Source of the DNA: Saccharopolyspora sp. SCSIO 74807
Lineage (GTDB): Bacteria; Actinomycetota; Actinomycetes; Mycobacteriales; Pseudonocardiaceae
Length of the DNA stretch: 64,000 nucleotides
Assembly (NCBI RefSeq): GCF_037023755.1
Contig: NZ_CP146100.1
Span: forward strand, 4,247,501-4,311,500
Direction of reading: 5' to 3'
Shown here: one piece after another, positions 3,278 through 21,190 of the stretch
Position numbering within the stretch: the stretch's first letter is position 1
Layout: each line of letters opens with the position of its first letter
Translations under genes and position numbers: made by a program
The notes under the pieces: generated by a model
Seen by the model: the letters and a program-made list of their open reading frames with translations, nothing else
Databases searched by the model: none
Told to the model about the DNA's origin: nothing

Positions 3278-3494
3278 GTTGCCTCCTGGGGATCGGTTCT
3301 AGCCGCGAGCCGGGAAATCAGGACGAAACAGAAGCCACAACAAGCAACAACAATGACCAGAAACACACGGGAAGTCAACGGCACCATCCGTGTGCCGCGC
3401 ATCGGAGCAACATCATGGATCTGAACGGGTGTATCCGGTTAAGTTGGATCGGCAGACCACCCGGCACCGGTGCCGCATCGAGGAGGACCCGCAC

Positions 3495-5213
3495 GTGACC
3501 CAGCAAGCCCAGTCCCCGCAGGTCGGAAATCCCGGTGCGCAGTTCTTGGCCGCCCGCGACCTGCTGCTGCGCCACCGCGAGGACTACGACGCCGCGCGGG
3601 CGGAGTTCCGCTGGCCGCAGCCCGCCGAGTTCAACTGGGCGCTGGACTGGTTCGACACCATCGCCGCGCGCGAGGACCGCCTGGCGCTGTGGATCGTCGA
3701 GGCCGACGGGGGCGAGCGCAAGCTCACCTTCGGCGATCTGACCCGGCGCTCCAACCAGGTCGCGAACTGGCTGCGCGGCCTCGGCGTGGCCCGCGGCGAC
3801 AAGCTGATCCTGATGCTGGGCAACCAGGTCGAGCTGTGGGAGACGATCCTGGCCGCGATGAAGCTCGGCGCGGTGATCATCCCGGCGACGACGCTGCTCG
3901 GCGCGGCGGACCTGCGCGACCGGGTCGATCGGGGTGGGGCCAAGCACGTGGTCACCACGGCCGCCGACGCCGCCAAATTCGCGGATGTGCCAGGGGATTA
4001 CACCCGCATCGCGGTCGGTGGCGCGGACGGCTGGCAGTCCTATTCGGACAGCGAAGCCGCGGACGAGTCGTTCACCCCGGACGGACCGACCCGCGCCGCC
4101 GACCCGCTGCTGCTGTACTTCACCTCCGGGACCACCGCGCAGCCGAAGCTCGTCGAGCACACCCACGTTTCCTACCCGGTCGGTCATCTGTCCACTATGT
4201 ACTGGATCGGGCTGGAACCGGGGGACGTGCACCTGAACATCTCCTCGCCGGGCTGGGCCAAGCACGCGTGGAGCAACGTGTTCGCGCCGTGGAACGCCGA
4301 GGCGACGGTGTTCATCTACAACTACTCCCGCTTCGACGCTCCGGCGCTGCTGCGCGAGATCGAGCGCTGCGGAGTGACCAGCTTCTGCGCCCCGCCCACG
4401 GTGTGGCGGATGCTCATCCAAGCGGACCTGAGCGCGTTGCCGACTCCGCCGCGCAAGGTCGTCGGCGCCGGGGAGCCGCTCAACCCGGAGATCATCGAGC
4501 AGGTCCGCCGCTCGTGGGGAGTGTCCATCCGGGACGGTTTCGGGCAGACCGAGACCAGCGTGCAGGTGGCCAACACGCCCGGCCAGGAGCTCAAACCCGG
4601 ATCGATGGGCCGCGCGCTGCCCGGCTTCGAGGTCACGCTGGTGGACCCGGCCGGTGGCCGGGAAGCCGAGGAAGGCGAGATCTGCCTGCGCCTGGACCCG
4701 CGGCCGGTCGGCCTGATGACCGGCTACGCCGACGACGCCGAGCGCAACGCCGAGGTGTTGCGCGGCGGCTACTACCACACCGGCGACGTCGGATCGCGGG
4801 ATTCCGAGGGCTACATCACCTACGTCGGGCGCACCGATGACGTGTTCAAGGCGTCGGACTACCGGATCTCACCGTTCGAGCTGGAAAGCGTGCTGCTGGA
4901 GCACGAGGCCGTCGCCGAGGCCGCGGTGGTTCCCTCGCCGGACCCGATCCGGCTGGCGGTGCCGAAGGCGTACGTCGTGCTGGCCGCCGGATGGGAGCCG
5001 GGGGAGGAGTCGGCGCTGGCGATCCTGCGGTTCGCCCGCGAGCACTTGGCGCCGTACAAGCGGATCCGGCGGCTGGAGTTCACCGACCTGCCCAAGACGA
5101 TCTCCGGCAAGATCCGCCGCGTCGAACTCCGCACCCGCGAGACCGAACAGCTCACCGACGCCGCCCCGCCCGGCGAGTACCGCGAGGAGCACTTCCCGAC
5201 CCTGAAGTCCTGA
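3495..5213 (+). CDS. AMP-forming acyl-CoA synthetase (AcsM-like medium/short-chain)
   Basis: A 572-residue ANL-superfamily ligase. The P-loop-like motif YFTSGTTAQPK lies around residue 208, followed by a DGFGQTETS core, YYHTGDV and YVGRTDDVFKASDYRISPFELE, with the C-terminal catalytic Lys in PKTISGKIRR. PGWAKHAWSNVFAPWNAEATVF is typical of the medium-chain acyl-CoA / acetoacetyl-like synthetase branch. It activates a carboxylic acid to the acyl-CoA with ATP. Start GTG 3495 is chosen for AGGAGG at 3481-3486; an in-frame extension upstream lacks conserved sequence. It stands alone, divergent from the GH2 operon, and ends in palindromic repeat elements. Confidence 0.9.
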   Translation: MTQQAQSPQVGNPGAQFLAARDLLLRHREDYDAARAEFRWPQPAEFNWALDWFDTIAAREDRLALWIVEADGGERKLTFGDLTRRSNQVANWLRGLGVARGDKLILMLGNQVELWETILAAMKLGAVIIPATTLLGAADLRDRVDRGGAKHVVTTAADAAKFADVPGDYTRIAVGGADGWQSYSDSEAADESFTPDGPTRAADPLLLYFTSGTTAQPKLVEHTHVSYPVGHLSTMYWIGLEPGDVHLNISSPGWAKHAWSNVFAPWNAEATVFIYNYSRFDAPALLREIERCGVTSFCAPPTVWRMLIQADLSALPTPPRKVVGAGEPLNPEIIEQVRRSWGVSIRDGFGQTETSVQVANTPGQELKPGSMGRALPGFEVTLVDPAGGREAEEGEICLRLDPRPVGLMTGYADDAERNAEVLRGGYYHTGDVGSRDSEGYITYVGRTDDVFKASDYRISPFELESVLLEHEAVAEAAVVPSPDPIRLAVPKAYVVLAAGWEPGEESALAILRFAREHLAPYKRIRRLEFTDLPKTISGKIRRVELRTRETEQLTDAAPPGEYREEHFPTLKS

Positions 5214-6450: not shown

Positions 6451-6501
6451 GCCGTCGTCCCCTTCTGCTGATCCGGCCAGCAGCCTAGCGAAAATTCCTG
6501 A

Positions 6502-6528
6502 CATTCAAGATCGCACGATCGGGGAATG
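6502..6528. promoter_or_regulatory. interrupted palindrome, candidate operator of the XRE regulator
   Basis: CATTC-aa-GATCG-ca-CGATC-ggg-GAATG forms two nested inverted repeats in the 157-bp gap between the XRE gene and the divergent small gene at 6608. Position and symmetry suit a dimeric HTH regulator; no binding data exist. Confidence 0.35.
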
Positions 6529-6607
6529 CCCGGCCTTGGATGTCAACTTCTAATCTCCCGATCAACCGCGTCGAATCGCACGCGGGCACGGGAGAGAGGA
6601 GTCACCC

Positions 6608-6976
6608 ATGGACGGAACGGGCGGAATCGGGCGCGATCCGCTGGACCTGCTGGTGCCGGACCTGACCGGACACCCGCCGATGTGCGGAGAGGAGGAGCTC
6701 GCCCGCCGGATGGCCGTGGAGGTCGCCAAAGCCAGGGCCCGCGCATTCGCAGTCGTCCAGGAGTACGGAACGCGCGCCGCGATGGAGATCGCGGGCTGGG
6801 GGATCGCCGTCGGAGGCCGATACGACGTGATCGGCGTCGGCGGGGGCCAATGGCTCGCCGATGCCCTCGCCCGACTCCGTGCGGCAGGGGTTCACCTGGG
6901 GCGGCCGGGTGCGTGCGCACGTGGTCCCAGCGGACGGAACGCAGCGGTCGATCGGCTGATCAAGACGTCGAGTTGA
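6608..6976 (+). CDS. small protein of unknown function
   Basis: A 122-residue protein that I do not recognise. The start ATG has GAGAGGAG a few bases upstream. The middle (about residues 28-60) is an Ala/Arg-rich helix (LARRMAVEVAKARARAFAVVQEYG), followed by Gly-rich stretches. It has no signal peptide or membrane segment. It is divergent from the XRE/DUF397 pair and could be a target of that regulator, which is inference from position only. Confidence 0.6.
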   Translation: MDGTGGIGRDPLDLLVPDLTGHPPMCGEEELARRMAVEVAKARARAFAVVQEYGTRAAMEIAGWGIAVGGRYDVIGVGGGQWLADALARLRAAGVHLGRPGACARGPSGRNAAVDRLIKTSS

Positions 6977-7008
6977 TCTAGGGTCGGGGGAGACGATCTG
7001 GGGGCGCT

Positions 7009-7878
7009 ATGACCGACGTGGCCGCTGAAGCGCAACAAGCGGGGACATTGGTCACCCTGGCGGTGCTCCTGGCGGCGGTGTTGCACGCGACGTGGAACGC
7101 GCTCGCGCACGGGGTGGCCGACCGGATGATCGGGTTCTCGCTGATCGGCCTCACCTACACCGCGGTCGGCGCAGTTGTGGTGATGTTCACCGGCCCGCCC
7201 GCACCGGAAGCCTGGCCGCTGGTGCTGGCTTCCGCCGCGGTGCACGTCCTTTATCAATTCGGATTGCTGGCCAGTTATCGGCTGGGCGAGTTCAGCCAGG
7301 TCTACCCGCTGGCCCGCGGCACTTCGCCGTGGGTGGTGACACTGCTGTCCGCCGTCCTGCTCGGCCAGCGCATCCCGGCGGTGCAGCTGGCCGGGGTGCT
7401 GGTGGTCTCCGCGGGGTTGCTGAGCCTGGTGTTCGTCGGCGGGATGCCCGGTCGCACCGCTGTGCCGGGTCTGCTCGCCGCGTTCGGCACCGGCCTGCTG
7501 ATCGCCACTTACACGGTCATCGACGGCGTCGGAGTGCACCGGACCGGTGTGCTCGGCTACGCGGCCTGGATGTTCCTGCTGCAGGGGCCCGCGTTGCCGC
7601 TGGCCGGCTGGACCTCGCGGCGCCGGAGTTTTCTGCCCGGATTGCGCCGGCATTGGCGCGGCGGAATTGCGGGCGGGCTCGTTTCGATGGCCGCCTACGG
7701 GATCGTTTTGTGGGCGCAAACACGGGCAACCCTTGGACCGGTTGCGGCGCTGCGCGAGACCAGCATCGTGTTCGGCGCATTGCTCGGGGCGATCTTCCTG
7801 GGCGAGCGGATGGGCCGCGGCCGGGCGGTGCTCGCCGGGGTCGTGGTGGCCGGGATCGTCCTGATCGACCTGGCCTGA
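7009..7878 (+). CDS. EamA-family (DMT superfamily) transporter
   Basis: A 289-residue integral membrane protein with about ten hydrophobic segments arranged as two EamA repeats (roughly 14-140 and 150-289). EFSQVYPLARGTSPW in the first repeat and GPVAALRETSIVFGALLGAIFLGE in the second are typical of the family. EamA proteins export amino acids or related metabolites, or take up small solutes; the substrate here cannot be named. GGGGG precedes the start. Given the betaine block next door a role in osmolyte handling is conceivable but not shown. Confidence 0.88.
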   Translation: MTDVAAEAQQAGTLVTLAVLLAAVLHATWNALAHGVADRMIGFSLIGLTYTAVGAVVVMFTGPPAPEAWPLVLASAAVHVLYQFGLLASYRLGEFSQVYPLARGTSPWVVTLLSAVLLGQRIPAVQLAGVLVVSAGLLSLVFVGGMPGRTAVPGLLAAFGTGLLIATYTVIDGVGVHRTGVLGYAAWMFLLQGPALPLAGWTSRRRSFLPGLRRHWRGGIAGGLVSMAAYGIVLWAQTRATLGPVAALRETSIVFGALLGAIFLGERMGRGRAVLAGVVVAGIVLIDLA

Positions 7879-8211
7879 CCAGCGAGGAAGCGGCAACTGA
7901 AAAGATCTTGTGCCAAAGTCTGGCGCTGCTGCGGTGTGGATCGTAACATCCGTGGCCCCCCGATCGATCTCACCGGCGGAAAAGGGAAATCGATCCCCAC
8001 CGCGAGCCCAGCGTGAGCAATTTTGTAGGCATCCGCGGTTGCGCTATTCGTTGTTGTCATGGTAAGTGCTGCGTACGCGATGGTACACACTCCGGCGCGA
8101 CCGTGCACTTATCTGATCGTGACATGCCTCCGCAATCTCCGGAATAAGCGCAGGTGAAAGCGCATTTTTTTACCCAGGGTGATCGGTTGAATCACGCTAA
8201 TATCCCACCCA

Positions 8212-8227
8212 TGTGATCAGTGTCACA
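8212..8227. promoter_or_regulatory. CRP/GlxR-type operator, perfect half-sites
   Basis: TGTGATCAGTGTCACA matches the TGTGA-N6-TCACA consensus recognised by CRP-family regulators (Crp in mycobacteria, GlxR in corynebacteria) with both half-sites exact. It lies 12 bp upstream of the best -35 candidate (8239). No CRP gene is in the window. Confidence 0.55.
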
Positions 8228-8238
8228 GCTTTGCACGG

Positions 8239-8266
8239 TTGCTTCAGCAACTCATTCGCCTAGTTT
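8239..8266 (+). promoter_or_regulatory. possible housekeeping-type promoter for the betaine block
   Basis: TTGCTT (8239-8244), a 16-bp spacer and TAGTTT (8261-8266) resemble actinobacterial TTGnnn / TAnnnT boxes. The fit is modest; it gains weight only from its place just after the CRP-like site. Confidence 0.3.
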
Positions 8267-8499
8267 GGTTACTCGACGCACGGATCTCGCGTCGAAGCCG
8301 GTCGGCAAAGGCGCTGACTGAGTGCGAGGACTGGCGCAGGTGTTGCGGCCTGAACTTTTTCGGCCGCCCGCGCCGGTGCGCAGGCGTCGCCATTTCGATT
8401 GGCGACCCGGCACGACCGCGAGATGATCTCGGGGCGGATTCGCGCGGACCCGAGTGCGGTGCAGAGGCGCATGACCAACGCGAGTGGTGGGAGTGAAGT

Positions 8500-10206
8500 A
8501 TGGCCAAGAGCGTGGATGACCTGGCGCACGGCGACGGCAACGGTGCGGTCGACAACACGGCCGAGCTGGTCGCCCGCGAGGAGCAGGTCTTCGGCGACAA
8601 CCCGTTGGAAGTGCGCGAATCCGACCACTACACGCACGAGTACGTCGGCGGATTCGTCGACAAGTGGGACGACCTGATCGACTGGAAGAAGCGCTACGAG
8701 AGCGAAGGCCAGTTCTTCGTCGAACAGCTCAAAGCCCGCGGTGTGGAATCGGTGCTGGACGTGGCGACCGGCACCGGGTTCCATTCCGTGCGGCTGCTGG
8801 AAGAGGGCTTCGAGACGGTCAGCGCGGACGGCAGCCCGCAGATGCTCGCCCAGGCGTTCCGCAACGGCCTGGCCTACGGCGGGCACATCCTGCGCGTGGT
8901 GCACGCCGACTGGCGGTGGCTGAACCGGGACGTGCACGGCGCGTACGACGCGATCATCTGCTTGGGCAACTCGTTCACGCACCTGTTCTCCGAGCGGGAC
9001 CGGCGCAAGACGCTGGCGGAGTTCTACGCGATGCTCAAGCACGACGGCGTGCTGATCATCGACCAGCGCAACTACGACTCCATTCTGGACGACGGGTTCT
9101 CCAGCAAGCACACCTATTACTACGCGGGCGAGGACGTTTCCGCGGAACCCGATCACGTGGACGAGGGCCTGGCCCGGTTCAAGTACACGTTCCCGGACAA
9201 GAGTGAATTCTTCCTCAACATGTACCCGTTGCGGAAGAATTACGTGCGGCGGCTGCTGCGCGAGGTCGGATTCCAGCGGATCGACACCTACGGCGATTTC
9301 CAGGAAACGCACGCCGACCAGGACCCGGACTTCTTCATCCACGTCGCGGAGAAGAACTACCGGGCCGAGGACGAACTGTCCGACATGTACTCGGCGGCGG
9401 TGCACACCGCCCGCGACTACTACAACTCCGAGGACGCGGACAACTTCTACTTCAACGTCTGGGGCGGCAACGACATCCACGTCGGCCTCTACCAGACCAA
9501 GGACGAGGACATCGATGCCGCGTCCCGGCGCACCGTCGAGCGGATGGTGAGCAAGGTAGAGATCACACCGCAGACCCGCGTGCTCGACATCGGCGCCGGT
9601 TACGGTGGTGCTGCGCGGCACTTGGCCCGGACCTACGGCTGCAAGGTGGCCTGCCTGAACCTCAGCGAGGTGGAGAACCGGCGCAACGTCGAGTTCAACC
9701 GCGCCGAGGGGCTCGACCACCTCATCGAGGTCAAGGACGGCTCGTTCGAGGACATCCCGTTCCAGGACAACGCGTTCGACGTGGTGTGGTCGCAGGACGC
9801 GATCCTGCACAGCGGTGACCGCGAGCGGGTTCTCGAAGAGGCCACCCGGGTGCTGAGCAAGGGCGGCTCGTTCGTGTTCACCGACCCGATGGCCGCCGAT
9901 GACGCCCGCAAGCAGGACCTCGGGCCGATCTTGGAGCGGCTCAACCTGGACACGATGGGCACGCCCGGCTTCTACCGCCGCGAGCTGGCCCGGCTGGGCC
10001 TGCAGAACTTCGAATTCGAGGACCTCAGCGAGTACCTGCCGGTGCACTACGGCCGGGTGCTGGAGGTGCTGGAGAGCCGCGAGTCCGAGCTGGCCGACCG
10101 GATCAGCGAGGAGTACCGCACGAAGATGAAGCGCGGGCTGCGCGCCTGGGTCGACTCCGGTAACGCCGGGAGCCTGGCGTGGGGCATCATCCACGCCCGT
10201 GCATGA
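8500..10206 (+). CDS. fused glycine/sarcosine and sarcosine/dimethylglycine N-methyltransferase (betaine synthase)
   Basis: A 568-residue protein with two class I SAM-methyltransferase domains. The N-terminal domain (about 35-290) resembles glycine/sarcosine N-methyltransferase, with motif I VLDVATGTG at 85-93. The C-terminal domain (about 293-568) resembles sarcosine/dimethylglycine methyltransferase, with motif I VLDIGAGYG at 361-369 and the VVWSQDAILHSGDR stretch. Together they methylate glycine three times to glycine betaine, a compatible solute, using three SAM. Separate enzymes serve this route in Halorhodospira; a fused form is known from Actinopolyspora halophila. GGTGGGAG precedes the ATG. 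It heads a block of SAM-cycle genes. Confidence 0.93.
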   Translation: MAKSVDDLAHGDGNGAVDNTAELVAREEQVFGDNPLEVRESDHYTHEYVGGFVDKWDDLIDWKKRYESEGQFFVEQLKARGVESVLDVATGTGFHSVRLLEEGFETVSADGSPQMLAQAFRNGLAYGGHILRVVHADWRWLNRDVHGAYDAIICLGNSFTHLFSERDRRKTLAEFYAMLKHDGVLIIDQRNYDSILDDGFSSKHTYYYAGEDVSAEPDHVDEGLARFKYTFPDKSEFFLNMYPLRKNYVRRLLREVGFQRIDTYGDFQETHADQDPDFFIHVAEKNYRAEDELSDMYSAAVHTARDYYNSEDADNFYFNVWGGNDIHVGLYQTKDEDIDAASRRTVERMVSKVEITPQTRVLDIGAGYGGAARHLARTYGCKVACLNLSEVENRRNVEFNRAEGLDHLIEVKDGSFEDIPFQDNAFDVVWSQDAILHSGDRERVLEEATRVLSKGGSFVFTDPMAADDARKQDLGPILERLNLDTMGTPGFYRRELARLGLQNFEFEDLSEYLPVHYGRVLEVLESRESELADRISEEYRTKMKRGLRAWVDSGNAGSLAWGIIHARA

Positions 10207-10241
10207 TCATTAAAACAGCATAAGACCCCTGTTGGGGACGG

Positions 10242-10284
10242 TTGCTCCGGTGCCATGGAGTGGAACTCCATGACATCGGAGCGG
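10242..10284 (+). other. long hairpin between betaine synthase and metK
   Basis: GCTCCGGTGCCATGGAG pairs with CTCCATGACATCGGAGC around a 5-nt loop (TGGAA): 17 bp with one mismatch and one G-U, extendable by two G-U pairs. A small CCCC/GGGG hairpin precedes it at 10226-10237. No U-tract follows. It is a candidate terminator, attenuator or RNA-processing site. Confidence 0.7.
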
Positions 10285-10337
10285 CCGGTACGCAAGGATC
10301 GAAGCCGCCAAAGTAGCGACAGAGGTGAGGTTGAGCC

Positions 10338-11540
<1,203 letters not shown>

Positions 11541-11561
11541 TCGCGCACGTCCGCACGGGCT

Positions 11562-11591
11562 GCCGCGGGGCGCCGTCGCGCGCCCCGCGGC
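11562..11591 (+). terminator. perfect 12-bp hairpin after metK
   Basis: GCCGCGGGGCGC (11562-11573) pairs exactly with GCGCCCCGCGGC (11580-11591) around a 6-nt loop, 21 nt after the metK stop. No U-tract, as is common for actinobacterial terminators; a processing or stability role is equally possible. Confidence 0.65.
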
Positions 11592-11673
11592 CCGGTGCGG
11601 GCCAGGTCCCCTGAACACTTAGAGGTCGGTGGCCGACGACGTCGCCGGCCCACCGCCGTGAAGGAGTATTGCA

Positions 11674-12648
11674 GTGCGGATTGCGGTGACCGGTTCGATC
11701 GCCACCGACCACCTGATGTCCTTCCCCGGCAGGATCGCCGATCAGCTGATCGCCGATCAGCTCGAGCAGGTGTCCCTGTCGTTCCTGGTCGACGAGCTGG
11801 AGGTGCGCCGCGGCGGGATCGCGGCCAACATCACCTTCGGGCTCGGCAAGCTGGGCGTGACCCCCTACCTGGTCGGCGCCGTGGGTGAGGACTTCGAGGA
11901 ATACCGGTCGTGGCTGGAGCGGCACGGGGTGGACACCGCCTCGGTGCACGTCTCGGCGACCAAGCACACCTCCCGGTTCCTGTGCACGACCGACCAGGAC
12001 TTCAACCAGATCGCCTCGTTCTACCCGGGCGCCATGTCCGAGGCGCGGGAGATCGAGTTGAAGTCCGTGGCCGACCGCATCGGCGGGCTGGACCTCGTGG
12101 TGATCTCCGCGAACGACCCGGACGCGATGATCAGGCACACCCAGGAGTCGCGGGAGCGCGGCTACAAGTTCCTCGCCGACCCCGGCCAGCAGCTGGCCCG
12201 GATGGACGGCGAGGCGGTGCGCAAGCTCGTCGAGGGTGCGGAGTACCTGTTCACCAACGAGTACGAGCACGGCCTGCTGCTGCAGAGCACCGGCTGGAGC
12301 CACGAAGAGGTGCTGGGCAAGGTCGGCAGCTGGGTGACCTCGCTGGGCGCGAAGGGCCTGAAGGTCGAATCCGCTTCGGCCCCGACCCTGGAGGTCGTGC
12401 CGCCGAAGGAGAAGCAGAAGGGCGACCCGACCGGTGTCGGCGACGCGCTGCGCGCCGGGTTCCTGGCCGGCCTGTCCGGCGGTCTGGGCCTGGAGCGGTC
12501 CCTGCAGCTCGGCTGCACCCTGGCGACGGTGTCGCTGGAGACCGACGGGCCGCAGGAGTACGACGTCGAGCGCGAGTCGTTCCTCGCGCGCATCGCCGAG
12601 GCGTACGGCGAGTCCGCCGCGACCGAGATCGGCTCGAAGCTGCGCTGA
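11674..12648 (+). CDS. adoK: adenosine kinase, PfkB family (mycobacterial AdoK type)
   Basis: A 324-residue ribokinase-family protein that reads closely along its length with Mycobacterium tuberculosis AdoK, also 324 residues. Shared parts include VTGSIATDHLM at the start, ASFYPGAMSEAR and LFTNEYE. The PfkB C-terminal signature DPTGVGDALRAGF starts at 251, placing the catalytic Asp at 257 as in AdoK. It phosphorylates adenosine to AMP. Next to ahcY this makes sense: removing adenosine pulls the reversible SAH hydrolase reaction forward. GTG start 8 nt after AAGGAG. Often misnamed a generic carbohydrate kinase. Confidence 0.9.
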   Translation: MRIAVTGSIATDHLMSFPGRIADQLIADQLEQVSLSFLVDELEVRRGGIAANITFGLGKLGVTPYLVGAVGEDFEEYRSWLERHGVDTASVHVSATKHTSRFLCTTDQDFNQIASFYPGAMSEAREIELKSVADRIGGLDLVVISANDPDAMIRHTQESRERGYKFLADPGQQLARMDGEAVRKLVEGAEYLFTNEYEHGLLLQSTGWSHEEVLGKVGSWVTSLGAKGLKVESASAPTLEVVPPKEKQKGDPTGVGDALRAGFLAGLSGGLGLERSLQLGCTLATVSLETDGPQEYDVERESFLARIAEAYGESAATEIGSKLR

Positions 12649-12659
12649 ACCCCCGTCCT

Positions 12660-12694
12660 CCGGCGGCACCGGCAGACGCCGCCGGTGCCGCCGG
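12660..12694 (+). terminator. perfect 14-bp hairpin after adoK
   Basis: CCGGCGGCACCGGC (12660-12673) pairs exactly with GCCGGTGCCGCCGG (12681-12694) around a 7-nt loop, 12 nt after the adoK stop. No U-tract. Confidence 0.65.
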
Positions 12695-12751
12695 GCGCGG
12701 AGGACACTGGGTTCGGGCGTGGTCGAAGAAAGCGTGGGAAGAGGCAGCGAC

Positions 12752-15700
12752 ATGAATGGGGTCAACACGAACGGCGAATCCGCTTCGGGCCGGGACCCGA
12801 GCGGGTTTCTCAGCGCGCTCGCCGAGCGCGTGCTCGTCGCGGACGGCGGAATGGGCACCGCGTTGCAGGCCCACGACCTGACGCTGGACGACTTCGCGAA
12901 CCTCGAAGGCTGCAACGAGATCCTCAACGAGACCCGCCCGGACGTGGTTTCCAGCGTCTACCGCGGTTTCCTCGAGGCTGGTTCGGACGCGATCGAATCG
13001 AACACGTTCGGCACGAACCTCGCCAACCTCGGCGAGTACGGCATCACGGAGCGGATCCGGGACCTGGCCGAGAAGGGCGCCCGGCTGGCCCGCGAGGCCG
13101 CCGACGAGTTCTCGACGCCGGACAAGCCGCGGTTCGTGCTCGGTTCGATGGGGCCGGGCACCAAGCTGCCCACCCTCGGCCACGCGCCGTACGCGGACCT
13201 GCGCGACGCCTACGAGGAGAGCGTGCTGGGCCTGCTCGAGGGCGGGATCGACGTGGTCCTGGTCGAGACCTCCCAGGACCTGCTGCAGACGAAGGCCTCG
13301 ATCGTCGGCGCCAAGCGCGCCATGGCCAAGACCGGCCAGTACCGGCCGATCATCGCGCAGGTCACCGTGGAGCAGACCGGCACGATGCTGGTGGGCTCGG
13401 AGATCGGCGCGGCGCTGACCGCGCTGGAGCCGCTGGGCATCGACATGATCGGGATGAACTGCGCGACCGGGCCGGCGGAGATGAGCGAGCACCTGCGGGT
13501 GCTGGCCCAGCACGCCCAGGTGCCGATCTCGGTGATGCCGAACGCGGGCCTGCCCGAGCTCGGCCCGAACGGCGCGGTGTATCCGCTGCAGGCCGACGAG
13601 CTGGCCGAGGCGCTGGTCGGGTTCGTCAACAACTTCGGCACCCGGCTGGTCGGCGGCTGCTGCGGCACCACCGGTGAGCACGTGCGCGCGGTCTCCGAGG
13701 CGGTCGCCGGGCTCAACCCGGCGCCGCGCACGCCGGAGGTCATCCCGTCGGTGTCGTCGGTGTACCAGGCGGTGCCGTTCCAGCAGGACGCCACCAACCT
13801 CAACGTCGGCGAGCGCACCAACACCAACGGTTCCAAGAAGTTCCGCGAGGCCATGCTCGACGGCCGCTACGAGGACTGCGTCGAGATCGCCAAGTCCCAG
13901 ACCCGCGAGGGCGCGCACCTGCTCGACCTGTGCGTGGACTACGTGGGCCGCGACGGCGTCGAGGACATGCGGGAACTGGCCAGCAGGCTGGCCACCGCCT
14001 CCACGCTGCCGGTGATGGTGGACTCCACCGAGGCCGACGTCATCCAGGCGGGCTTGGAGCACTTCGGCGGCCGGTGCGCGGTGAACTCGGTGAACTACGA
14101 GGACGGCGACGGCCCGGACTCGCGGTTCCAGAAGGTCATGGACATGGTCCACGAGCACGGCGCCACCATCGTCGGGCTGTGCATCGACGAGGAGGGCCAG
14201 GCCCGGACCCGGGACTGGAAGGTGCGCGTCGCCGAGCGGCTGATCGCGGACATCACCGGCAAGTGGGGCCTGGACGAGTCCTCGATCATCATCGACTGCC
14301 TGGTCTTCCCGATCACCACGGGCCAGGAGGAGGTCCGCGAGGACGGCATCGAGACCATCGAGGCGATCCGCGAGCTCAAGCGGCGGCACCCGGACGTGCA
14401 GACGACGCTGGGCCTGTCGAACGTCTCGTTCGGGCTGAACCCGGCCGCGCGCCAGGTGCTGAACTCGGTGTTCCTAAACGAGTGCCGCGAAGCCGGGCTG
14501 GACTCGGCGATCCTGAACGCCTCCAAGATCCTGCCGATGAGCAAGATCGAGGACGAGCAGCGGCAGGTCGCGCTGGACCTGGTCTACAACCGCCGCACCG
14601 AGGACTACGACCCGCTGCAGAAGCTGATGTCGCTGTTCGAGGGCAAGACGGCGGCCTCCAGCGGTGCCTCGCGGGCCGAGGAGCTGGCGAAGCTGCCGCT
14701 GTTCGAGCGGCTGGAGAAGCGCATCGTGGACGGCGAGCGCAACGGGCTCGAAGCGGATCTGGACGAGGCCATGCAGGAGAAGGCCCCGCTGCAGATCGTC
14801 AACGAGAACCTGCTGGCCGGCATGAAGGTCGTCGGTGACCTGTTCGGTTCCGGGCAGATGCAGCTGCCGTTCGTGCTGCAGTCCGCGGAGGTCATGAAGA
14901 CCGCCGTGGCGCACCTCGAACCGCACATGGACAAGGACGACACCGGCGGCAAGGGCAAGCTGCTGCTGGCCACCGTCAAGGGCGATGTGCACGACATCGG
15001 CAAGAACCTGGTGGACATCATCGTGTCCAACAACGGCTACGACGTGGTCAACATCGGCATCAAGCAGCCGGTCAACGCCATCCTGGAAGCCGCCGACGAG
15101 CACAAGGTCGACGTGATCGGCCTGTCCGGGCTGCTGGTCAAGTCGACGGTGATCATGAAGGAGAACCTGGAGGAGATGAACTCCAGGGGCATCTCCGAGA
15201 AGTACCCGGTGATGCTCGGCGGCGCGGCGCTGACCCGCTCCTTCGTGGAGAACGACCTCGACGAGGTCTTCCAGGGCGACGTGCGCTACGCGAAGGACGC
15301 CTTCGAGGGCCTGAACCTGATGGACCGGCTGATGGCCATCAAGCGCGGCGACAGCCCCGAGGAGGACGAGAAGGAACAGGCCAAGAAGGCCGAGCGCAAG
15401 GAGCGCCGCGAGCGTTCGCTGCGGATCGCCGAGAAGCGCAAGGCCGAGGAAGGCGAGATCCCGGACCTCTACGACGAGTCCACCCGTTCCGACGTGGACG
15501 CCGATTCCCCGGTGCCGACCCCGCCGTTCTGGGGCTCCCGGGTGATCAAGGGCGTGCCCACGGCCGACTACTTGGCGCTGCTGGACGAGCGGGCCACGTT
15601 CTTCGGCCAGTGGGGCCTGCGCGGCTCCAAGAAGGGCGAGGGCAAGACCTACGAGGAACTGGTCGAGTCCGAGGGCCGCCCGCGGCTGCGCGCGTGGGTG

Positions 15701-16345
15701 GACGAGCTGTCCACCGCGGGCATCCTGCAGCACGCGGCCGTGGTCTACGGCTACTTCCCGGTGGTCTCCGAGGGCAACTCGCTGATCGTGCTGGACAAGG
15801 AGGAGCCGGACTCGCCGGAGCGCACCCGGTTCACCTTCCCGCGCCAGCAGCGGGACCGGCGGCTGTGCCTGGCGGACTTCTACCGCTCGCGGGAGAAGGC
15901 CGAGCAGACCGGGCAGGTCGACGTGCTGCCGATGCAGCTGGTCACGATGGGCCAGCCGATCGCGGACTACGCCAACCAGCTGTTCGCGAAGGACGCCTAC
16001 CGGGATTACCTGGAGATCCACGGCATGGGCGTGCAGCTGACCGAGGCGTTGGCGGAGTACTTCCACCGCCGGGTGCGCCAGGAGCTGCTGTTCTCCAGCG
16101 GCCGGGCGGTCTCCGAGGAGGACCCGGACGAGGTCACCGAGTTCTTCAAGCTCGGCTACCGCGGTGCCCGCTTCTCGTTCGGCTACGGCGCCTGCCCGGA
16201 GATCGAGGACCGGGCCAAGATCGTGGAGCTGCTGGAGAGCGAGCGGATCGGCGTGGAGCTTTCCGAGGAGTTCCAGCTGCACCCGGAGCAGTCCACCGAC
16301 GCGATCATCGCCCACCACCCCGAGGCGAAGTACTTCAACACGTGA
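12752..16345 (+). CDS. metH: cobalamin-dependent methionine synthase
   Basis: A 1197-residue four-module MetH. The Hcy-binding barrel (1 to about 325) has the zinc ligands Cys237 (in MNCATGP) and Cys303-Cys304 (in GGCCGTT). The pterin-binding barrel spans about 345-620. The B12 module (about 640-870) has the axial-ligand motif DVHDIGKN, His747. A charged Lys/Glu/Arg-rich linker (about 868-905) leads to a C-terminal SAM-dependent reactivation domain (GARFSFGYGACPEIEDR). It moves the methyl of 5-methyl-THF to homocysteine. ATG 12752 with GGAAGAGG upstream is preferred over an in-frame extension inside adoK. It regenerates methionine for metK in the same block. Confidence 0.97.
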   Translation: MNGVNTNGESASGRDPSGFLSALAERVLVADGGMGTALQAHDLTLDDFANLEGCNEILNETRPDVVSSVYRGFLEAGSDAIESNTFGTNLANLGEYGITERIRDLAEKGARLAREAADEFSTPDKPRFVLGSMGPGTKLPTLGHAPYADLRDAYEESVLGLLEGGIDVVLVETSQDLLQTKASIVGAKRAMAKTGQYRPIIAQVTVEQTGTMLVGSEIGAALTALEPLGIDMIGMNCATGPAEMSEHLRVLAQHAQVPISVMPNAGLPELGPNGAVYPLQADELAEALVGFVNNFGTRLVGGCCGTTGEHVRAVSEAVAGLNPAPRTPEVIPSVSSVYQAVPFQQDATNLNVGERTNTNGSKKFREAMLDGRYEDCVEIAKSQTREGAHLLDLCVDYVGRDGVEDMRELASRLATASTLPVMVDSTEADVIQAGLEHFGGRCAVNSVNYEDGDGPDSRFQKVMDMVHEHGATIVGLCIDEEGQARTRDWKVRVAERLIADITGKWGLDESSIIIDCLVFPITTGQEEVREDGIETIEAIRELKRRHPDVQTTLGLSNVSFGLNPAARQVLNSVFLNECREAGLDSAILNASKILPMSKIEDEQRQVALDLVYNRRTEDYDPLQKLMSLFEGKTAASSGASRAEELAKLPLFERLEKRIVDGERNGLEADLDEAMQEKAPLQIVNENLLAGMKVVGDLFGSGQMQLPFVLQSAEVMKTAVAHLEPHMDKDDTGGKGKLLLATVKGDVHDIGKNLVDIIVSNNGYDVVNIGIKQPVNAILEAADEHKVDVIGLSGLLVKSTVIMKENLEEMNSRGISEKYPVMLGGAALTRSFVENDLDEVFQGDVRYAKDAFEGLNLMDRLMAIKRGDSPEEDEKEQAKKAERKERRERSLRIAEKRKAEEGEIPDLYDESTRSDVDADSPVPTPPFWGSRVIKGVPTADYLALLDERATFFGQWGLRGSKKGEGKTYEELVESEGRPRLRAWVDELSTAGILQHAAVVYGYFPVVSEGNSLIVLDKEEPDSPERTRFTFPRQQRDRRLCLADFYRSREKAEQTGQVDVLPMQLVTMGQPIADYANQLFAKDAYRDYLEIHGMGVQLTEALAEYFHRRVRQELLFSSGRAVSEEDPDEVTEFFKLGYRGARFSFGYGACPEIEDRAKIVELLESERIGVELSEEFQLHPEQSTDAIIAHHPEAKYFNT

Positions 16346-16352
16346 TCCCGGC

Positions 16353-16387
16353 CGGGCGGGCCGCGCTGGCTGATCGCGGCCCGCCCG
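16353..16387 (+). terminator. perfect 13-bp hairpin after metH
   Basis: CGGGCGGGCCGCG (16353-16365) pairs exactly with CGCGGCCCGCCCG (16375-16387), loop of 9 nt, 7 nt after the metH stop. No U-tract. Confidence 0.65.
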
Positions 16388-16402
16388 CCGGAGGACTCTC
16401 GA

Positions 16403-16453
16403 CCCGAGCAGGGAAATCGCCTGTGACAGGGATGAAGCCCGAGCAGGGAAATC
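16403..16453 (+). repeat. 16-bp direct repeat in the ahcY leader
   Basis: CCCGAGCAGGGAAATC occurs at 16403-16418 and again at 16438-16453, a 35-bp period; a shorter GGAAATC follows at 16460-16466, ending at the ahcY ATG. The repeat may be a regulator site or a slipped duplication of the ribosome-binding region. Confidence 0.6.
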
Positions 16454-16466
16454 AAGAAAGGAAATC

Positions 16467-17924
16467 ATGAGCGCGAAGCTGCAAACGGCCAATGGCCTCG
16501 ATTTCGCCGTCGCTGATCTGGGACTGGCCGAGTCGGGTCGGCACCAGATCCGGCTGGCGGAGCATGAGATGCCGGGTTTGATGGCGACTCGCCGGGAGTA
16601 TGCGGACTCGAAGCCGCTGAAGGGCGCGCGGATCGCAGGTTCGTTGCACATGACGGTGCAGACGGCGGTGCTCATCGAGACGCTGGTTGAGCTGGGCGCG
16701 GATGTGCGGTGGGTGTCGTGCAACATTTTCTCGACCCAGGACGAGGCCGCGGCGGCGGTCGTGGTCGGTGGCGGTACTGCGGACAAGCCTGCTGGTGTGC
16801 CGGTGTTCGCGTGGAAGGGTGAGACGCTCGAGGATTACTGGTGGTGCACCAACCAGCTCTGGGAGTTCGGCGGCGGCAAGCTCGCGAACATGATCCTGGA
16901 CGATGGTGGTGACGCGACGCTGCTGGTGCACAAGGGTGTCGAGTTCGAGGCCGCGGGTGCGGTGCCGCAGCCGACTGAGGACGACCCGGACGAGTTCAAG
17001 GTCGTGCTGTCGACGCTGCGTAAGAGCCTGGAGCAGGATGCCCAGCGGTTCACGACGCTGGCGAAGGAGATCAAGGGCGTTACCGAGGAGACCACGACCG
17101 GTGTGCACAAGCTGGTCGAGTTGGTCAAGTCGGAGGAGCTGTTGTTCCCGGCGATCAATGTGAACGACTCGGTGACGAAGTCGAAGTTCGACAACAAGTA
17201 CGGCTGCCGGCACTCGCTGGTCGATGGCATCAACCGCGCCACCGACGTGCTCATTGGTGGCAAGGTCGCGGTGATCGCCGGGTTCGGCGATGTCGGTAAG
17301 GGCTCGGCGGAGTCGCTGCGGGGCCAGGGTGCTCGGGTGATCGTCACCGAGATCGACCCGATCTGCGCGTTGCAGGCGGCGATGGAGGGCTACGAGGTCA
17401 AGACCTTGGACGAGGTCGTTGAGTTCGCGGACATCTTCATCACCACCACCGGGAACTTCGACATCATCACCGCTGAGCACATGAGCCGGATGAAGCATCA
17501 GGCGATCGTGGGCAATATCGGGCATTTCGACAACGAGATCGACATGGCGGGGTTGGAGAAGACTCCGGGTGTGCGGAAGGTCGAGATCAAGCCGCAGGTG
17601 CACGAGTTCACGTTCACCGATGGGCACTCGATCCTGGTGTTGTCCGAGGGCCGGTTGTTGAACCTGGGTAACGCGACCGGGCACCCGAGTTTCGTGATGT
17701 CGAACTCGTTCACGAACCAGACGCTGGCGCAGATCGAGTTGTGGACCAAGCCGGGTGAGTACGGCAAGGACGTGTACGTGCTGCCGAAGCTGCTGGACGA
17801 GAAGGTCGCCCGGCTGCACCTGGACGCGCTCGGGGTCAACCTCACCCGCATGACCAAGGCCCAGGCCGAGTACATCGGCGTCGACGTCAACGGGCCCTAC
17901 AAGCCCGAACACTACCGCTACTGA
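16467..17924 (+). CDS. ahcY: S-adenosylhomocysteine hydrolase
   Basis: A 485-residue adenosylhomocysteinase of the long actinobacterial type. It opens with [25 protein letters not shown], has the [15 protein letters not shown] and [13 protein letters not shown] substrate segments, the NAD-binding GFGDVGKG at about 272-279 and the C-terminal PYKPEHYRY. It splits SAH, the inhibitory product of methyl transfer, into adenosine and homocysteine. AAAGGA lies just before the ATG. Codon choice from about 16480 to 17760 is unlike its neighbours, with many TTG, GGT, GTG and GCT/ACT codons, and returns to C-rich third positions in the last 50 codons. This may reflect expression selection or recombination. 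Confidence 0.97.
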
Positions 17925-17957
17925 TTCGTTCGGCTACGGCCTGAGCGACCGGTGGTC

Positions 17958-17998
17958 GCCGCCACCGCCCGGGGTTTGCAGCCTCGGGCGGTGGCGGC
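17958..17998 (+). terminator. perfect 14-bp hairpin after ahcY
   Basis: GCCGCCACCGCCCG (17958-17971) pairs exactly with CGGGCGGTGGCGGC (17985-17998), loop of 13 nt, 33 nt after the ahcY stop. A C/A-rich stretch follows instead of a U-tract. Confidence 0.65.
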
Positions 17999-18161
17999 CC
18001 CCGAAAAACCCAGCAACTCCCGTCGAGGCCGCGGCGCCGAACACTTCGCGCCCCCTCGAATTCCGATTTTTCCGGCAGTACGGTTGCTGCTCGCGCGGCT
18101 GCTCCAGCGACGCGGCCGGGTGTGCGCGGTGACCGGCTAGGAAGGAAAACCTGAGGCCGAC

Positions 18162-19049
18162 ATGCACACGATCGCACTCGAAATGGCACCGCCCGACCTG
18201 GACGGCGGACAGGAGAGGGCCGTGGAGGAAGGCCGCAAGGTGGCCGAGAACAGCCGCGCCGCCGGGCTCGCCGACCGCATCGGGCACCTCATGATCCCGG
18301 GCATCATCGCCGAGGACGACGACCGTCCGATCGAGATGAAGCCGAAGATGGACGTCATCGACTTCTGGAACGCGGTGCGTCCGGAGATCGGCGACGTCAA
18401 GGGCCTGTGCACGCAGGTCACCGCGTTCATGGACAAGCCGCAGCTGACCGAGCGGCTCAAGCACCTGCGCAGCGCCGGGATGGAAGGCATCACGTTCGTC
18501 GGCGTGCCGCGCACCATGGCCGACGGCGAAGGCGGCGGGATCCCGCCGACCGACGCCTTAACCCAGTTCCAGGACATCGTGCCCAACCGCGGCTCGATCC
18601 TCATCCCGACCCGCGAGGGCGAGCACGGCCGGTTCAACTTCAAGTGCGACCGCGGCGCGACGTACGGCATGACGCAGCTGCTGTACTCCGACGCGATCGT
18701 CGGATTCCTGCGGGAATTCGCGGAGAAGACGCCGCACCGCCCGGAGATCCTGCTCTCGTTCGGTTTCGTGCCGAGCGTCGAAGGCAAGCGCGGACTGATC
18801 GACTGGCTCATCCAGGACCCCGGCAACCCGGCCGTCGAGGCCGAGCAGAAGTGGGTCGCCGCGATCAGCGAGCTCGGCTTCGAGCAGCGCAAGCAGAAGC
18901 ATCTCGACGTGTACAAGAGCGTCATCGACGGGGTGGCCGACCTCGGCTTCCCGCTGAGCCTGCACCTGGAGGCCCCGTACGGCTACTCCAAGCCGGCCTT
19001 CGACGTGTTCGCGGAGATGCTCGACTACTGGTCCCCGACACCGTCCTGA
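18162..19049 (+). CDS. methylenetetrahydrofolate reductase, flavin-independent mycobacterial type
   Basis: A 295-residue protein resembling the mycobacterial Rv2172c family. These are monomeric NADH-dependent MTHFRs reported to lack flavin and to be only distantly related to classical MetF. Family segments are HLMIPGIIAEDDDRPIEMKPKMDVIDFW, EGITFVGVPRTMADGEG, RFNFKCDRGATYGMTQLLYSDAIV and ILLSFGFVP. It reduces 5,10-methylene-THF to 5-methyl-THF, the methyl donor used by MetH 2 kb upstream. This closes the methyl supply of the block. The ahcY-to-start gap is 237 nt with a strong hairpin, so it may have its own promoter. Assignment rests on my memory of the family. Confidence 0.85.
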   Translation: MHTIALEMAPPDLDGGQERAVEEGRKVAENSRAAGLADRIGHLMIPGIIAEDDDRPIEMKPKMDVIDFWNAVRPEIGDVKGLCTQVTAFMDKPQLTERLKHLRSAGMEGITFVGVPRTMADGEGGGIPPTDALTQFQDIVPNRGSILIPTREGEHGRFNFKCDRGATYGMTQLLYSDAIVGFLREFAEKTPHRPEILLSFGFVPSVEGKRGLIDWLIQDPGNPAVEAEQKWVAAISELGFEQRKQKHLDVYKSVIDGVADLGFPLSLHLEAPYGYSKPAFDVFAEMLDYWSPTPS

Positions 19050-19140
19050 TCGCCTGTTGCTGAGCCCGTGGGTGGTCGCCTTCCGGCGCTCTCCCGCTGC
19101 GGGATCTCTCCTCCCTTCGATACCCGAGCGGTTCGCCGGA

Positions 19141-19180
19141 AGTGAACGGATCGTCCGCCCGGCGGGCGGTCCGTTCACTC
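19141..19180. repeat. palindromic intergenic repeat, copy 3
   Basis: AGTGAACGGA pairs with TCCGTTCACT (10 bp), then after a small internal loop CCGCCC pairs with GGGCGG. The ends match copies 1 and 2 near 5.3 kb while the centre differs. It lies between the convergent MTHFR and homocysteine methyltransferase genes and could terminate both. Confidence 0.65.
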
Positions 19181-19194
19181 CGCGCCCCTGCAGC

Positions 19195-20082
19195 TCAAGC
19201 GCGCGGCCGTGCCAGGACGTTCGCGACGGCGTTGATGTCGGCGGGCGCGACGCGGCAGCAACCGCCGACGATGCGGGCTCCCGCAGCGACCCAGTCGCGC
19301 ACCAGCGCCGCGTCGAACCGGGACGGCCCCGTCCAGTCCTGCCGTCCGGCGTTCCAGCCTTCGCCGCTGTTCGGATAGACCACGACGGGTTTTCCGGTCA
19401 TCTCGCGAGCGATCGGCACCGCCCGCGTGGCATCGGCGGGCGTGCAGCAGTTGATGCCGACCGCGAGCACGTCGTCCCGACCGGCGGCTACGGCGAACGC
19501 CTCCTCCAGCGGCTGTCCGGCGCGAGTGCGCTCGCCATCGATGTTGTACGAGAGCCAAGCGGGCACGTCGACGTCGCCGAGCACTTCCAGCAGCGCGGCC
19601 GCCTCGTCCACGTCCGGAACCGTCTCCAGCGCGAGCAGGTCGGGCCCGGCTTCGGCGAGGACTTCCAGCCGTGGCCGGTGGAACCCGACGAGTTCGCGGT
19701 GGCTCAGGCCGTAGCGGCCGCGGAACTCCGAACCGTCCGCCAGCACCGCCCCGTACGGGCCCACCGATGCCGCGACCAAGCGCCGCTTGCCCGCATCTCG
19801 CTGCGCGGCCCGCTTGGCCAGCTCGACGCTGCGACGCATCAGCCCGGCCGCGTGCTCGCGATCGAAGCCGTGCGCGGCGAAACCCGCGAAGCCCGCCTGG
19901 TAGCTCGCCGTGGTCACGATGTCCGCACCGGCCGCGAAGAACGCCTCGTGCGCGGCGACTATCTCTTCCGGTGCCGACGCCAGGAACTGCGCCGACCACA
20001 AGTCGCCGGAGAGATCACCCCCGCGCGCCTCCAGTTGCGTGCCCAGCCCGCCGTCGAGCACCAGCGGCTCGTCGAGTTCCAT
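19195..20082 (-). CDS. mmuM: homocysteine S-methyltransferase (SAM/S-methylmethionine type)
   Basis: A 295-residue stand-alone Hcy-binding barrel. It opens with PLVLDGGLGTQLEARG, carries GINCCTPAD (first zinc Cys) and VGGCCRVAP (paired zinc Cys). It methylates homocysteine from SAM or S-methylmethionine without cobalamin. ATG 20082 is chosen because TGGGGAC lies upstream; in-frame starts at 20106 and 20145 have no ribosome site. It lies convergent to the methyl-cycle block and gives a B12-independent way to turn homocysteine into methionine, or to dispose of excess SAM. Confidence 0.9.
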   Translation of the reverse strand: MELDEPLVLDGGLGTQLEARGGDLSGDLWSAQFLASAPEEIVAAHEAFFAAGADIVTTASYQAGFAGFAAHGFDREHAAGLMRRSVELAKRAAQRDAGKRRLVAASVGPYGAVLADGSEFRGRYGLSHRELVGFHRPRLEVLAEAGPDLLALETVPDVDEAAALLEVLGDVDVPAWLSYNIDGERTRAGQPLEEAFAVAAGRDDVLAVGINCCTPADATRAVPIAREMTGKPVVVYPNSGEGWNAGRQDWTGPSRFDAALVRDWVAAGARIVGGCCRVAPADINAVANVLARPRA

Positions 20083-20161
20083 GTCCCCACGGTAAAAGCC
20101 CGCCATGGCGGGATGTCGCCAGTACCGCCACCGGGTACGCCGCACGCGTGATCATGCCCGC

Positions 20162-21190
20162 ATGGCCGGAGTCGCAACTTCCACCGCCCGGGCCGCGCTC
20201 ACCTTCGCGGCGGCGCTCGCGGTGACCCTCGTTCCCGCCGGGTCCGCGCACGCGGCGACCGCCTACTGCGAAAGCCTCACCGACGCGTCGAACCAGGAGT
20301 GGATGAGCGGGCTGCCCGACGACACCGGCCTCGCGGCGCTGTCCGTTCCCGGCACGCACGACACCTTGTCGTTGCACGGCGGCGACATCACGCAGACCCA
20401 GGAGGACCACGGCGACAGCGCCGAAACCCTCACCGCGCAGCTCGACGCCGGCATCCGCGCCATCGACATCCGGGTGCGCAAGGTGGACAACGAGTTCACC
20501 GTCCACCACGGAACCTTCTACCAGCACGCCAACTTCGCCGACGTGCTGGCGAAGGCCGGTGACTTCCTCGCCGCCCACCCCGGCGAGACCGTGCTGCTGC
20601 GGCTGAAAGCCGAGTGCACCGGCGAAGTCGGCTCGTGCACCGACGAGTCCAGCGACCTGAGCACCGCGGAGATCCTGGACCGCTACCAGCAGAACGATCC
20701 CAACGGGCACTACCTGTACAACCCGGCTTCCGATGGCCCAGCTTCCGGTGCCACCGCTTCCGATGGGACGCCCACGCTGGGTGCCGCCCGCGGCAAGATC
20801 GTGCTCACCGCACTGCAGGAAGCCCAAGGCGGCTTGGTCGACGGATACGGGCTGGAGCAGTTCAACGACGACAACTGGGGCGACTACGTCCAGGACGAGT
20901 ACGAAGTGCCCACCGTCGGCGACATCGAGCAGAAGTGGAACCACGTGCGGGAGCACTGGGACAAGACGAACTCCGCCGATCCCGCGGAGATGTTCCTGAA
21001 CTTCACCAGCGGCTCCAGCCTCGGCGCCGACCCGAAAGACGTCGCCTGCGGCGCGAGCGGGGCCCGCGGCGTCAACGACCACGCCCTGGAACACCTCGGT
21101 GGCAACGACGTGCCGCGCACCGGCGTGGTGCTGATGGACTTCCCCGGCTCGGACCTGATCAACGAGGTCATCTCCCGCAACGGCGCCTGA
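20162..21190 (+). CDS. secreted phosphatidylinositol-specific phospholipase C-domain protein
   Basis: A 342-residue protein with a Sec signal peptide (MAGVATSTARAALTFAAALAV..., cleavage probably after AGSAHA). The PI-PLC X-domain follows, with first catalytic His66 in VPGTHDTLS and second His at 115/116 in TVHHGTFY, plus IDIRVRK. Bacterial PI-PLCs cleave phosphatidylinositol or GPI anchors into a cyclic inositol phosphate and diacylglycerol; many actinobacterial members have untested substrates. Divergent from mmuM across 79 bp. A PASDGPASGATASDG segment near residue 190 is a low-complexity insertion. Start 20162 sets a clean signal peptide. Confidence 0.9.
   Translation: MAGVATSTARAALTFAAALAVTLVPAGSAHAATAYCESLTDASNQEWMSGLPDDTGLAALSVPGTHDTLSLHGGDITQTQEDHGDSAETLTAQLDAGIRAIDIRVRKVDNEFTVHHGTFYQHANFADVLAKAGDFLAAHPGETVLLRLKAECTGEVGSCTDESSDLSTAEILDRYQQNDPNGHYLYNPASDGPASGATASDGTPTLGAARGKIVLTALQEAQGGLVDGYGLEQFNDDNWGDYVQDEYEVPTVGDIEQKWNHVREHWDKTNSADPAEMFLNFTSGSSLGADPKDVACGASGARGVNDHALEHLGGNDVPRTGVVLMDFPGSDLINEVISRNGA

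Follow-up and report, generated by a model that had tools for sequence, protein, structure and literature searches.

A betaine-synthesis block in Saccharopolyspora sp. SCSIO 74807 holding the only copies found of several methyl-cycle genes

A run of genes that joins betaine synthesis to the recycling of its methyl donor raises the question whether it is a spare set kept for stress or has become the methyl cycle of the cell that carries it. The run studied here lies in a 64,000-nucleotide (nt) stretch of Saccharopolyspora sp. SCSIO 74807 (contig NZ_CP146100.1; G000:C1:4247501-4311500, from a genome of 6.69 Mb in a single contig), and this whole stretch is called the window below. At positions 8500-19049 six plus-strand genes encode a fusion of glycine/sarcosine and sarcosine/dimethylglycine N-methyltransferases (GSMT-SDMT), S-adenosylmethionine (SAM) synthetase, adenosine kinase, methionine synthase, S-adenosylhomocysteine (SAH) hydrolase and methylenetetrahydrofolate reductase (MTHFR). 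We consider it probable that this block, which couples betaine synthesis to the activated methyl cycle, now serves as the methyl cycle of the whole cell in the window species. The six genes are the following.

8500-10206, plus strand: fused glycine/sarcosine and sarcosine/dimethylglycine N-methyltransferase, 568 amino acids (NCBIfam NF051855, NF041675; PDB 5h02, 5gwx, 2o57)
10338-11540, plus strand: metK, SAM synthetase, sole copy found in the genome (NCBIfam, Pfam)
11674-12648, plus strand: adoK-type adenosine kinase, sole copy found in the genome (Pfam PfkB; PDB chains)
about 12755-16345, plus strand: metH, B12-dependent methionine synthase, sole MetH found (NCBIfam, Pfam; start codon deduced)
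16467-17924, plus strand: ahcY, SAH hydrolase (NCBIfam, Pfam)
18162-19049, plus strand: MTHFR_2 (Mfr type, flavin-free MTHFR), sole MTHFR of either type found (Pfam PF19345)

An earlier reading of the sequence alone (the sequence-only reading) had placed six consecutive genes with these functions here, and the NCBIfam, Pfam and PDB matches bear out both the functions and the positions. The first half of the fusion protein (residues 29-288) scored 480.7 bits against the curated GSMT model NF051855, above its cut-off of 350, and matched the PDB chains 5h02 and 5gwx of glycine sarcosine N-methyltransferase (5h02, E = 2.6e-121). The second half is SDMT-like, with a match to chain 2o57, a putative sarcosine dimethylglycine methyltransferase (E = 1.5e-69), and likely works as an SDMT. 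For the kinase, all NCBIfam kinase matches were under the cut-off and the Pfam match was to PfkB; its residues 1-321 align with the solved adenosine kinases 4o1g and 2pkf (E about 1e-109), which identifies it as of the AdoK type. The metH open reading frame (ORF) opens at 12434, and its start probably lies near 12755. The MTHFR gene gave no match in NCBIfam. Its sole Pfam match was to PF19345, 'mycobacterial MTHFR' (E = 1.6e-136; 454.5 bits against a gathering score of 27), and not to classic MetF (PF02219). Residues 2-293 match 8bgr and 8qpj, with E7 aligned with residue 9 of 8bgr, the position of the Glu9 that has a catalytic role in mycobacterial Mfr (PMC11094777). On these matches the block MTHFR is predicted to be of the flavin-free mycobacterial type rather than MetF; given that NADH-dependent, flavin-free chemistry is known for mycobacterial members (PMC11094777, PMC8765232), the same activity may be expected by analogy for the window enzyme.

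Searches of the whole window genome gave one metK, one adenosine kinase, one MetH and one MTHFR_2, and MetF gave 0 matches at E up to 1e-10. The same-species draft G235 holds one metK as well. In all nine other genomes searched for coaBC, metK directly adjoins that gene. The coaBC of the window genome has no adjacent metK, and the gene next to it is the one that follows metK in the sister genome G262; no convincing metK remnant was found there (best tblastn E value to the gap, 0.063). Since metK, adenosine kinase, MetH and MTHFR were found solely in the block, the block must also carry general methyl metabolism. In the window species it seems to be more than a spare stress kit, as it seems to hold the only copies of several general methyl steps, and we recognise here that, judged by gene content, the block is no extra set in this genome.

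An accessory operon, induced by salt or drought on top of an ordinary methyl metabolism, is a possible alternative but not a probable one. It would fit the role of the fusion gene as the committed betaine enzyme, the halophile names that several carriers bear, and the second metK found in 22 of the 24 genomes with a full block, that is, a five-gene core of fusion gene, metK, adoK, metH and ahcY in order on one strand. The available text of a Methanohalophilus study also holds the suggestion that the SAM synthetase and SAH hydrolase genes are osmotically induced (PMC3176816). In the full-block genomes G262, G254, G203, G210 and G249 metK was the sole block gene with a copy outside the block, given the families searched and the thresholds used; G214 had no second metK, but an MTHFR_2 elsewhere. 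What speaks against this alternative is the window genome itself, in which the searches gave no further copy of metK, adenosine kinase, MetH or MTHFR.

A second ahcY of the window genome lies at 5769506-5770960. The two ahcY copies match over 1,463 nt at 99.385% identity, the match ending at the coding limits, and 8 of their 9 differences fall within the first 73 nt with one near the end (binomial, 3e-10), leaving one long identical tract.

16536-17902, plus strand: tract of 1,367 nt identical to the second ahcY (L100:9503-10965, minus strand), all 9 differences being outside it

The nearest other block ahcY, that of G262, is only 86.4% identical (over 12 block rows from the genomes compared; L020 and the other named loci were included in the tree only). 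In the tree the two copies of the window genome were sisters (100/99) to the exclusion of L020. Among 11 genomes with two ahcY genes that were compared, the second copy was of the block type in the window genome and in G250 (92.9%); in the other nine the copies were 73-82% alike, with eight second copies in the housekeeping clade and that of G202 outside both. The tree also gave the block ahcY of L068, L073, Jiangella and Phytoactinopolyspora as the housekeeping type. That the second ahcY of the window genome is the ancestral housekeeping gene was considered and rejected, as it groups with the block copies and no L100 gene matched the housekeeping stretch of G209. Its Pfam-matched neighbours are AMP-binding, flavin oxidoreductase, MFS, glyoxalase, PNPOx and hydrolase genes.

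For metK, 13 genomes with both a block and a housekeeping copy were compared. The copies paired within the genome in seven (G254, G203, G104, G213, G249, G261 and G211; ultrafast bootstrap 99-100), and all seven contained 90-nt windows of 100% identity in which the nearest block copy of another genome was 77-97% identical. Eight of the 80 named loci described below stop inside metK just after the fusion gene, presumably because the metK copies are near-identical. A paralogue-specific functional signature in metK was discarded: the middle segment is variable, but there were just 6 class-specific columns, one of them a first-column gap. The identical tracts and diverged ends are as after gene conversion, and suggest that both the ahcY and the metK pairs were shaped by it. 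Young duplications without any gene conversion are an unlikely explanation for these pairs. Overall identity is indeed high (99.4% for ahcY in the window genome, 98.7% for metK in G254), and the second ahcY of the window genome has no neighbours in common with the housekeeping ahcY locus of G209, but the differences are clustered rather than even, and in 8 of the 13 metK pairs the second copy stands beside coaBC. This place is common to several genera, and those pairs are therefore taken to be old. For the ahcY of the window genome, a recent copy inserted at a new site, whether or not conversion followed, is possible.

How widely the gene order is shared was examined in named genomes, using the best 80 of at least 543 confirmed relatives with gene matches by tblastn, and in 80 genomes drawn from the family. 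Among the 54 named loci that could be tested (at least 7.8 kb present downstream of the fusion gene), 25 had the five-gene core order; since it recurs this often, the order is not due to chance. These loci belong to Saccharopolyspora, Halosaccharopolyspora, Actinopolyspora, Prauserella, Saccharomonospora, Qaidamihabitans, Tamaricihabitans, Amycolatopsis, Haloechinothrix, Phytoactinopolyspora and Jiangella. In 24 of the 54, tblastn gave none of the five other genes downstream on the fusion strand, and the Streptomyces, Nocardiopsis, Actinomadura and Nocardia loci among the best 80 had no match to them. A GSMT match was present in 40 of the 80 family genomes, and these carriers had the full core in 24 cases and part of it in 5 (four of them at a contig end), a member being counted when its start lay within 4,500 nt of the start of another on the same contig. 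In a wider draw from the order, 10 of 200 genomes had a GSMT match, all 10 within this family. The sequence-only reading had expected the order to be shared with Actinopolyspora and relatives, and these counts exclude the outcome that it is confined to this genome.

The same distribution bears on the reading that the chief role of the module is to provide SAM for secondary metabolism or general methylation, betaine being incidental, which we regard as very unlikely. Runs of metK-adoK, metK-adoK-ahcY or metK-adoK-metH-ahcY do occur in genomes without a GSMT match (G240, G138, G220), one of them adjoining a large polyketide synthase, and the S. erythraea study, in the part available, ties metK to erythromycin methylation (PMC9206729). 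The fusion gene nevertheless heads the run in the 25 named loci and 24 carriers given above, and the region upstream of it is conserved.

Other arrangements were seen in the same comparisons, in some of which genes were found by a simple ORF and GC3 rule that misses genes, for example the kinases of L114 and L115. At L114:8862-16207, genes for a BTAD-type regulator and a sigma factor adjoin metK-adoK-metH-ahcY, although the genome (G220) gave no GSMT match. The contig end at L118:1649-10848 (G240) has a large polyketide synthase gene directly followed by metK and adenosine kinase. L116:4356-14105 (G201) is a stretch without a GSMT gene that holds an MTHFR and its C-terminal partner, a protein of about 510 amino acids, a core MetE-like synthase, metK, adenosine kinase, ahcY and formate-tetrahydrofolate (THF) ligase; L117 is partly similar to this methyl module, and L120 and L121 were compared with it by ORF sizes and metK or kinase matches alone. 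A divergent MetH (G202:C1:4761270-4764860, 34% identical to that of the window) occupies the metH place of the G202 block, and a Saccharopolyspora dendranthemae contig (L030:2-11234) has fusion gene and metK twice, inverted, by duplication or assembly artefact. The window genome has a stand-alone second GSMT (G000:C1:4021235-4022083; L004:16218-17252, minus strand), 78% identical to the first half of the fusion and with no adjacent SDMT; of the 40 carriers, 11 have a stand-alone GSMT of this kind, and in three of these the aligned part contains an in-frame TGA. Beside the block in the window, a homocysteine S-methyltransferase gene (19195-20145, minus strand) is convergent to it and was rejected as a member, as no separate match to it was kept among the 80 named loci. 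Regulator and transporter genes separate the fusion gene from an AMP-binding acyl/acetyl-CoA synthetase-like ORF (3390-5213); in 11 of the 80 named loci a match to this ORF lies no more than about 2 kb upstream of the fusion gene.

The last place of the block varies between genomes. After ahcY, 10 of the 24 full blocks had MTHFR_2, 8 had MetF, 2 had both and 4 had neither, and one of these four (G250) stops at the contig edge. The same block place thus appears, by family assignment, to be taken by either of two MTHFR enzyme types, which share a common fold and no significant sequence identity (PMC11094777). MTHFR_2 was present in 25 of the 40 GSMT carriers and in 0 of the 40 non-carriers of the family, or by genus in 16 of 23 carriers and 0 of 23 non-carriers, although the probability attached to this association is weakened by shared descent. 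Several carriers have MTHFR_2 at a site outside the block, and 11 carriers, including the window genome, had MTHFR_2 and no MetF at E <1e-30 (MetF rows at E >1e-30 were excluded from the family-genome counts). The flavin-free MTHFR was described in 2024, in the portion of the paper available, as identified solely in mycobacteria (PMC11094777). With GSMT present in all 25 MTHFR_2 genomes among the 80, it is thereby tied to betaine makers, which again argues against betaine as an incidental product of a SAM supply.

In Saccharopolyspora, Halopolyspora, Halosaccharopolyspora and Actinopolyspora the sequence ahead of the fusion gene is strongly conserved (21-row alignment), and two features were marked in it.

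8239-8266, plus strand: promoter-like TTGCTT-N16-TAGTTT within the conserved upstream region (by eye in the 21-row alignment)
8273-8499, plus strand: conserved 5' leader with four proposed hairpins in its first 108 nt, 8273-8380 (alignment, slid controls)

Pairing in the leader was analysed on 20 of the 21 rows, L036 being dropped as nearly identical to L035. In the hairpins 99.0% of cells were paired, compared with 26-46% when the partners were slid, and 10 cells were changed on both sides compared with 3.1 in shuffles. Of the 25 pairs 20 were invariant or varied on a single side, and the sequences tested are those from which the structure had been built. Folding energy was unexceptional in the three leaders folded (z -1.3 to -1.9) and therefore gives the structure no support. 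The consensus promoter and terminator scan gave about the same as shuffles, and its output did not contain the promoter-like pair. A known riboswitch was rejected, as Rfam gave a single match over 6500-20500, at E 0.46 and under the gathering score. Of 11 genomes searched with a model of the leader, eight had a single site, in every case immediately ahead of the fusion gene (some of the sites had served to train the model), and the three genomes outside the clade had none (G249, G216, G069). An extension beyond the clade was dropped, since model R1, run over 60 sources, recovered the window at E = 1.7e-14 and otherwise three matches with E values of 0.78-0.97. The leader is a candidate regulatory RNA of one clade, perhaps structured.

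A second point of control may lie before metK. In S. erythraea, which has two metK genes, the map legend for their loci names acs, met1 (glycine sarcosine N-methyltransferase), metK, adoK, metH, sahH and dfp (PMC9206729). According to the available part of the same source, PhoP and GlnR bind the region before SACE_3900, and transcription of this gene went up with overexpression of PhoP or GlnR under phosphate or nitrogen limitation and down in a glnR deletion. The primer used for the region upstream of SACE_3900 includes a conserved segment that L020 and L128 have between fusion gene and metK, and SACE_3900 is therefore taken for the block copy. Control of this copy by PhoP and GlnR is a further point against an operon that answers to salt or drought. 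The window has a related segment.

10288-10300, plus strand: GTACGCAAGGATC, a conserved segment before metK that includes GGATC, the putative GlnR a-site of S. erythraea (function deduced)

Neither the GlnR b-site GAAAC nor the S. erythraea PhoP motif was found in the gap between the fusion gene and metK (10207-10337); the PhoP motif had 15 matches in the window at up to 2 mismatches against 20.8 expected, and the nearest, 10361-10371, sits inside metK. It may be that metK is regulated independently of the leader that precedes the fusion gene. No salt-response data for the block were found in the open-licence literature searched. For Methanohalophilus GSMT, feedback inhibition by betaine is described, in the text available, only near 1 M (PMC5146677), which would allow a steady flux.

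Taken together, the observed gene order, sequences and missing copies make the following course of methyl flux and of evolution probable. The fusion enzyme would add three methyl groups to glycine, with three SAM becoming three SAH, and AhcY would split SAH into adenosine and homocysteine. Adenosine kinase would trap the adenosine as adenosine monophosphate, pulling AhcY forward and relieving inhibition by SAH. Methyl-THF would be made by the MTHFR with NADH and without flavin, MetH would use it to remethylate homocysteine, and MetK would then close the cycle. In many related genera some block genes are second copies beside housekeeping ones, apparently homogenised in part by gene conversion, above all metK. 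In the window species the housekeeping metK is missing, and the module recruited for betaine would have turned into the methyl cycle of the cell.

Several observations weigh against this reading. The SDMT half reached 388.8 bits with NF041675, under the cut-off of 550, with residues 298-567 spanning 6-276 of 278 model positions, so that its substrate range is a prediction from similarity. A MetE-type gene elsewhere in the genome (an 883-codon frame that matches Meth_synt_2 at E = 1.7e-149) rules out the block MetH as the only methionine synthase, and ahcY is present twice. The two metK copies fail to group together in 6 of the 13 genomes. Of the 40 GSMT carriers 11 have no block neighbour, at least 3 of them having the fusion gene at a contig end, and the family counts are phylogenetically non-independent. 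Finally, the intergenic gaps within the block are 106-237 nt by the gene coordinates; given these gaps and the region bound by PhoP and GlnR before the S. erythraea metK, the block may consist of several transcription units.

The sequence-only reading as a whole is partly supported. Its stoichiometric logic of betaine synthesis, SAM use and SAH recycling stands. 'Self-contained', in the sense of an add-on, does not agree with metK, adenosine kinase, MetH and MTHFR being found nowhere else in the genome, nor with methylene-THF being supplied from outside the block and a MetE-type gene and second ahcY lying elsewhere, and a self-contained stress accessory is too narrow a description for this species.

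A bolder version, which we offer as speculation and hold to be doubtful, is that a stress-solute operon captured the methyl cycle, gene conversion first making its recruited copies similar to the housekeeping genes, which they later replaced, and that the whole is under the control of a new structured leader RNA responding to a methyl-cycle or osmotic signal. In that case DNA, RNA and lipid methylation would depend on betaine demand in this species. The locus gives a case in which copies from a specialised pathway seem to have taken the place of central-metabolism genes, and sister genera show intermediate stages. The block also offers a natural SAM-regeneration set for engineering, plus a candidate regulatory RNA.

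With GSMT, SDMT, SAM synthetase and SAH hydrolase genes adjacent, the block belongs with the betaine-SAM recycling clusters of Halorhodospira and Methanohalophilus. No account of the MTHFR slot with its two alternative types, of the missing housekeeping metK, of the pattern of gene conversion or of the leader was met in the open-licence literature searched, in so far as its texts were available. The S. erythraea metK loci resemble the window in that one legend names met1, metK, adoK, metH and sahH together, and with acs also named there, the earlier description of the gene set as unusual was too strong within the family. Those loci, compared here by the gene names in the legend, were studied for erythromycin methylation rather than as a betaine block, and they differ in having two metK genes compared with the one found in the window genome and no MTHFR in the legend (PMC9206729). 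The GMT-DMT-MAT-SAHase-MTHFR cluster of Halorhodospira likewise combines betaine methyltransferases with SAM synthetase, SAH hydrolase and MTHFR; unlike in the window, methionine synthase lies elsewhere, and the term adenosine kinase does not occur in the available text (PMC7824335). In Methanohalophilus (sams-sahh-gsmt-sdmt) SAM synthetase and SAH hydrolase adjoin both methyltransferases, as in the window but in a different order (PMC3176816). The two Methanohalophilus stretches compared (L098:7138-14254 and L099:7222-14235) have metK-ahcY-GSMT/SDMT followed by a PfkB-type match, 33% identical to the window kinase, and besides ahcY a second AhcY-like match (36%), with no match to the window metH or MTHFR. 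Mycobacterial Mfr (Rv2172c type) belongs to the same Pfam family as the window MTHFR, with the catalytic Glu aligned, and differs in that the portions available describe no membership of a betaine block (PMC11094777, PMC8765232). Smaller clusters of a similar kind are already known from other phyla (PMC7824335, PMC3176816), and the same genes have been named for S. erythraea (PMC9206729).

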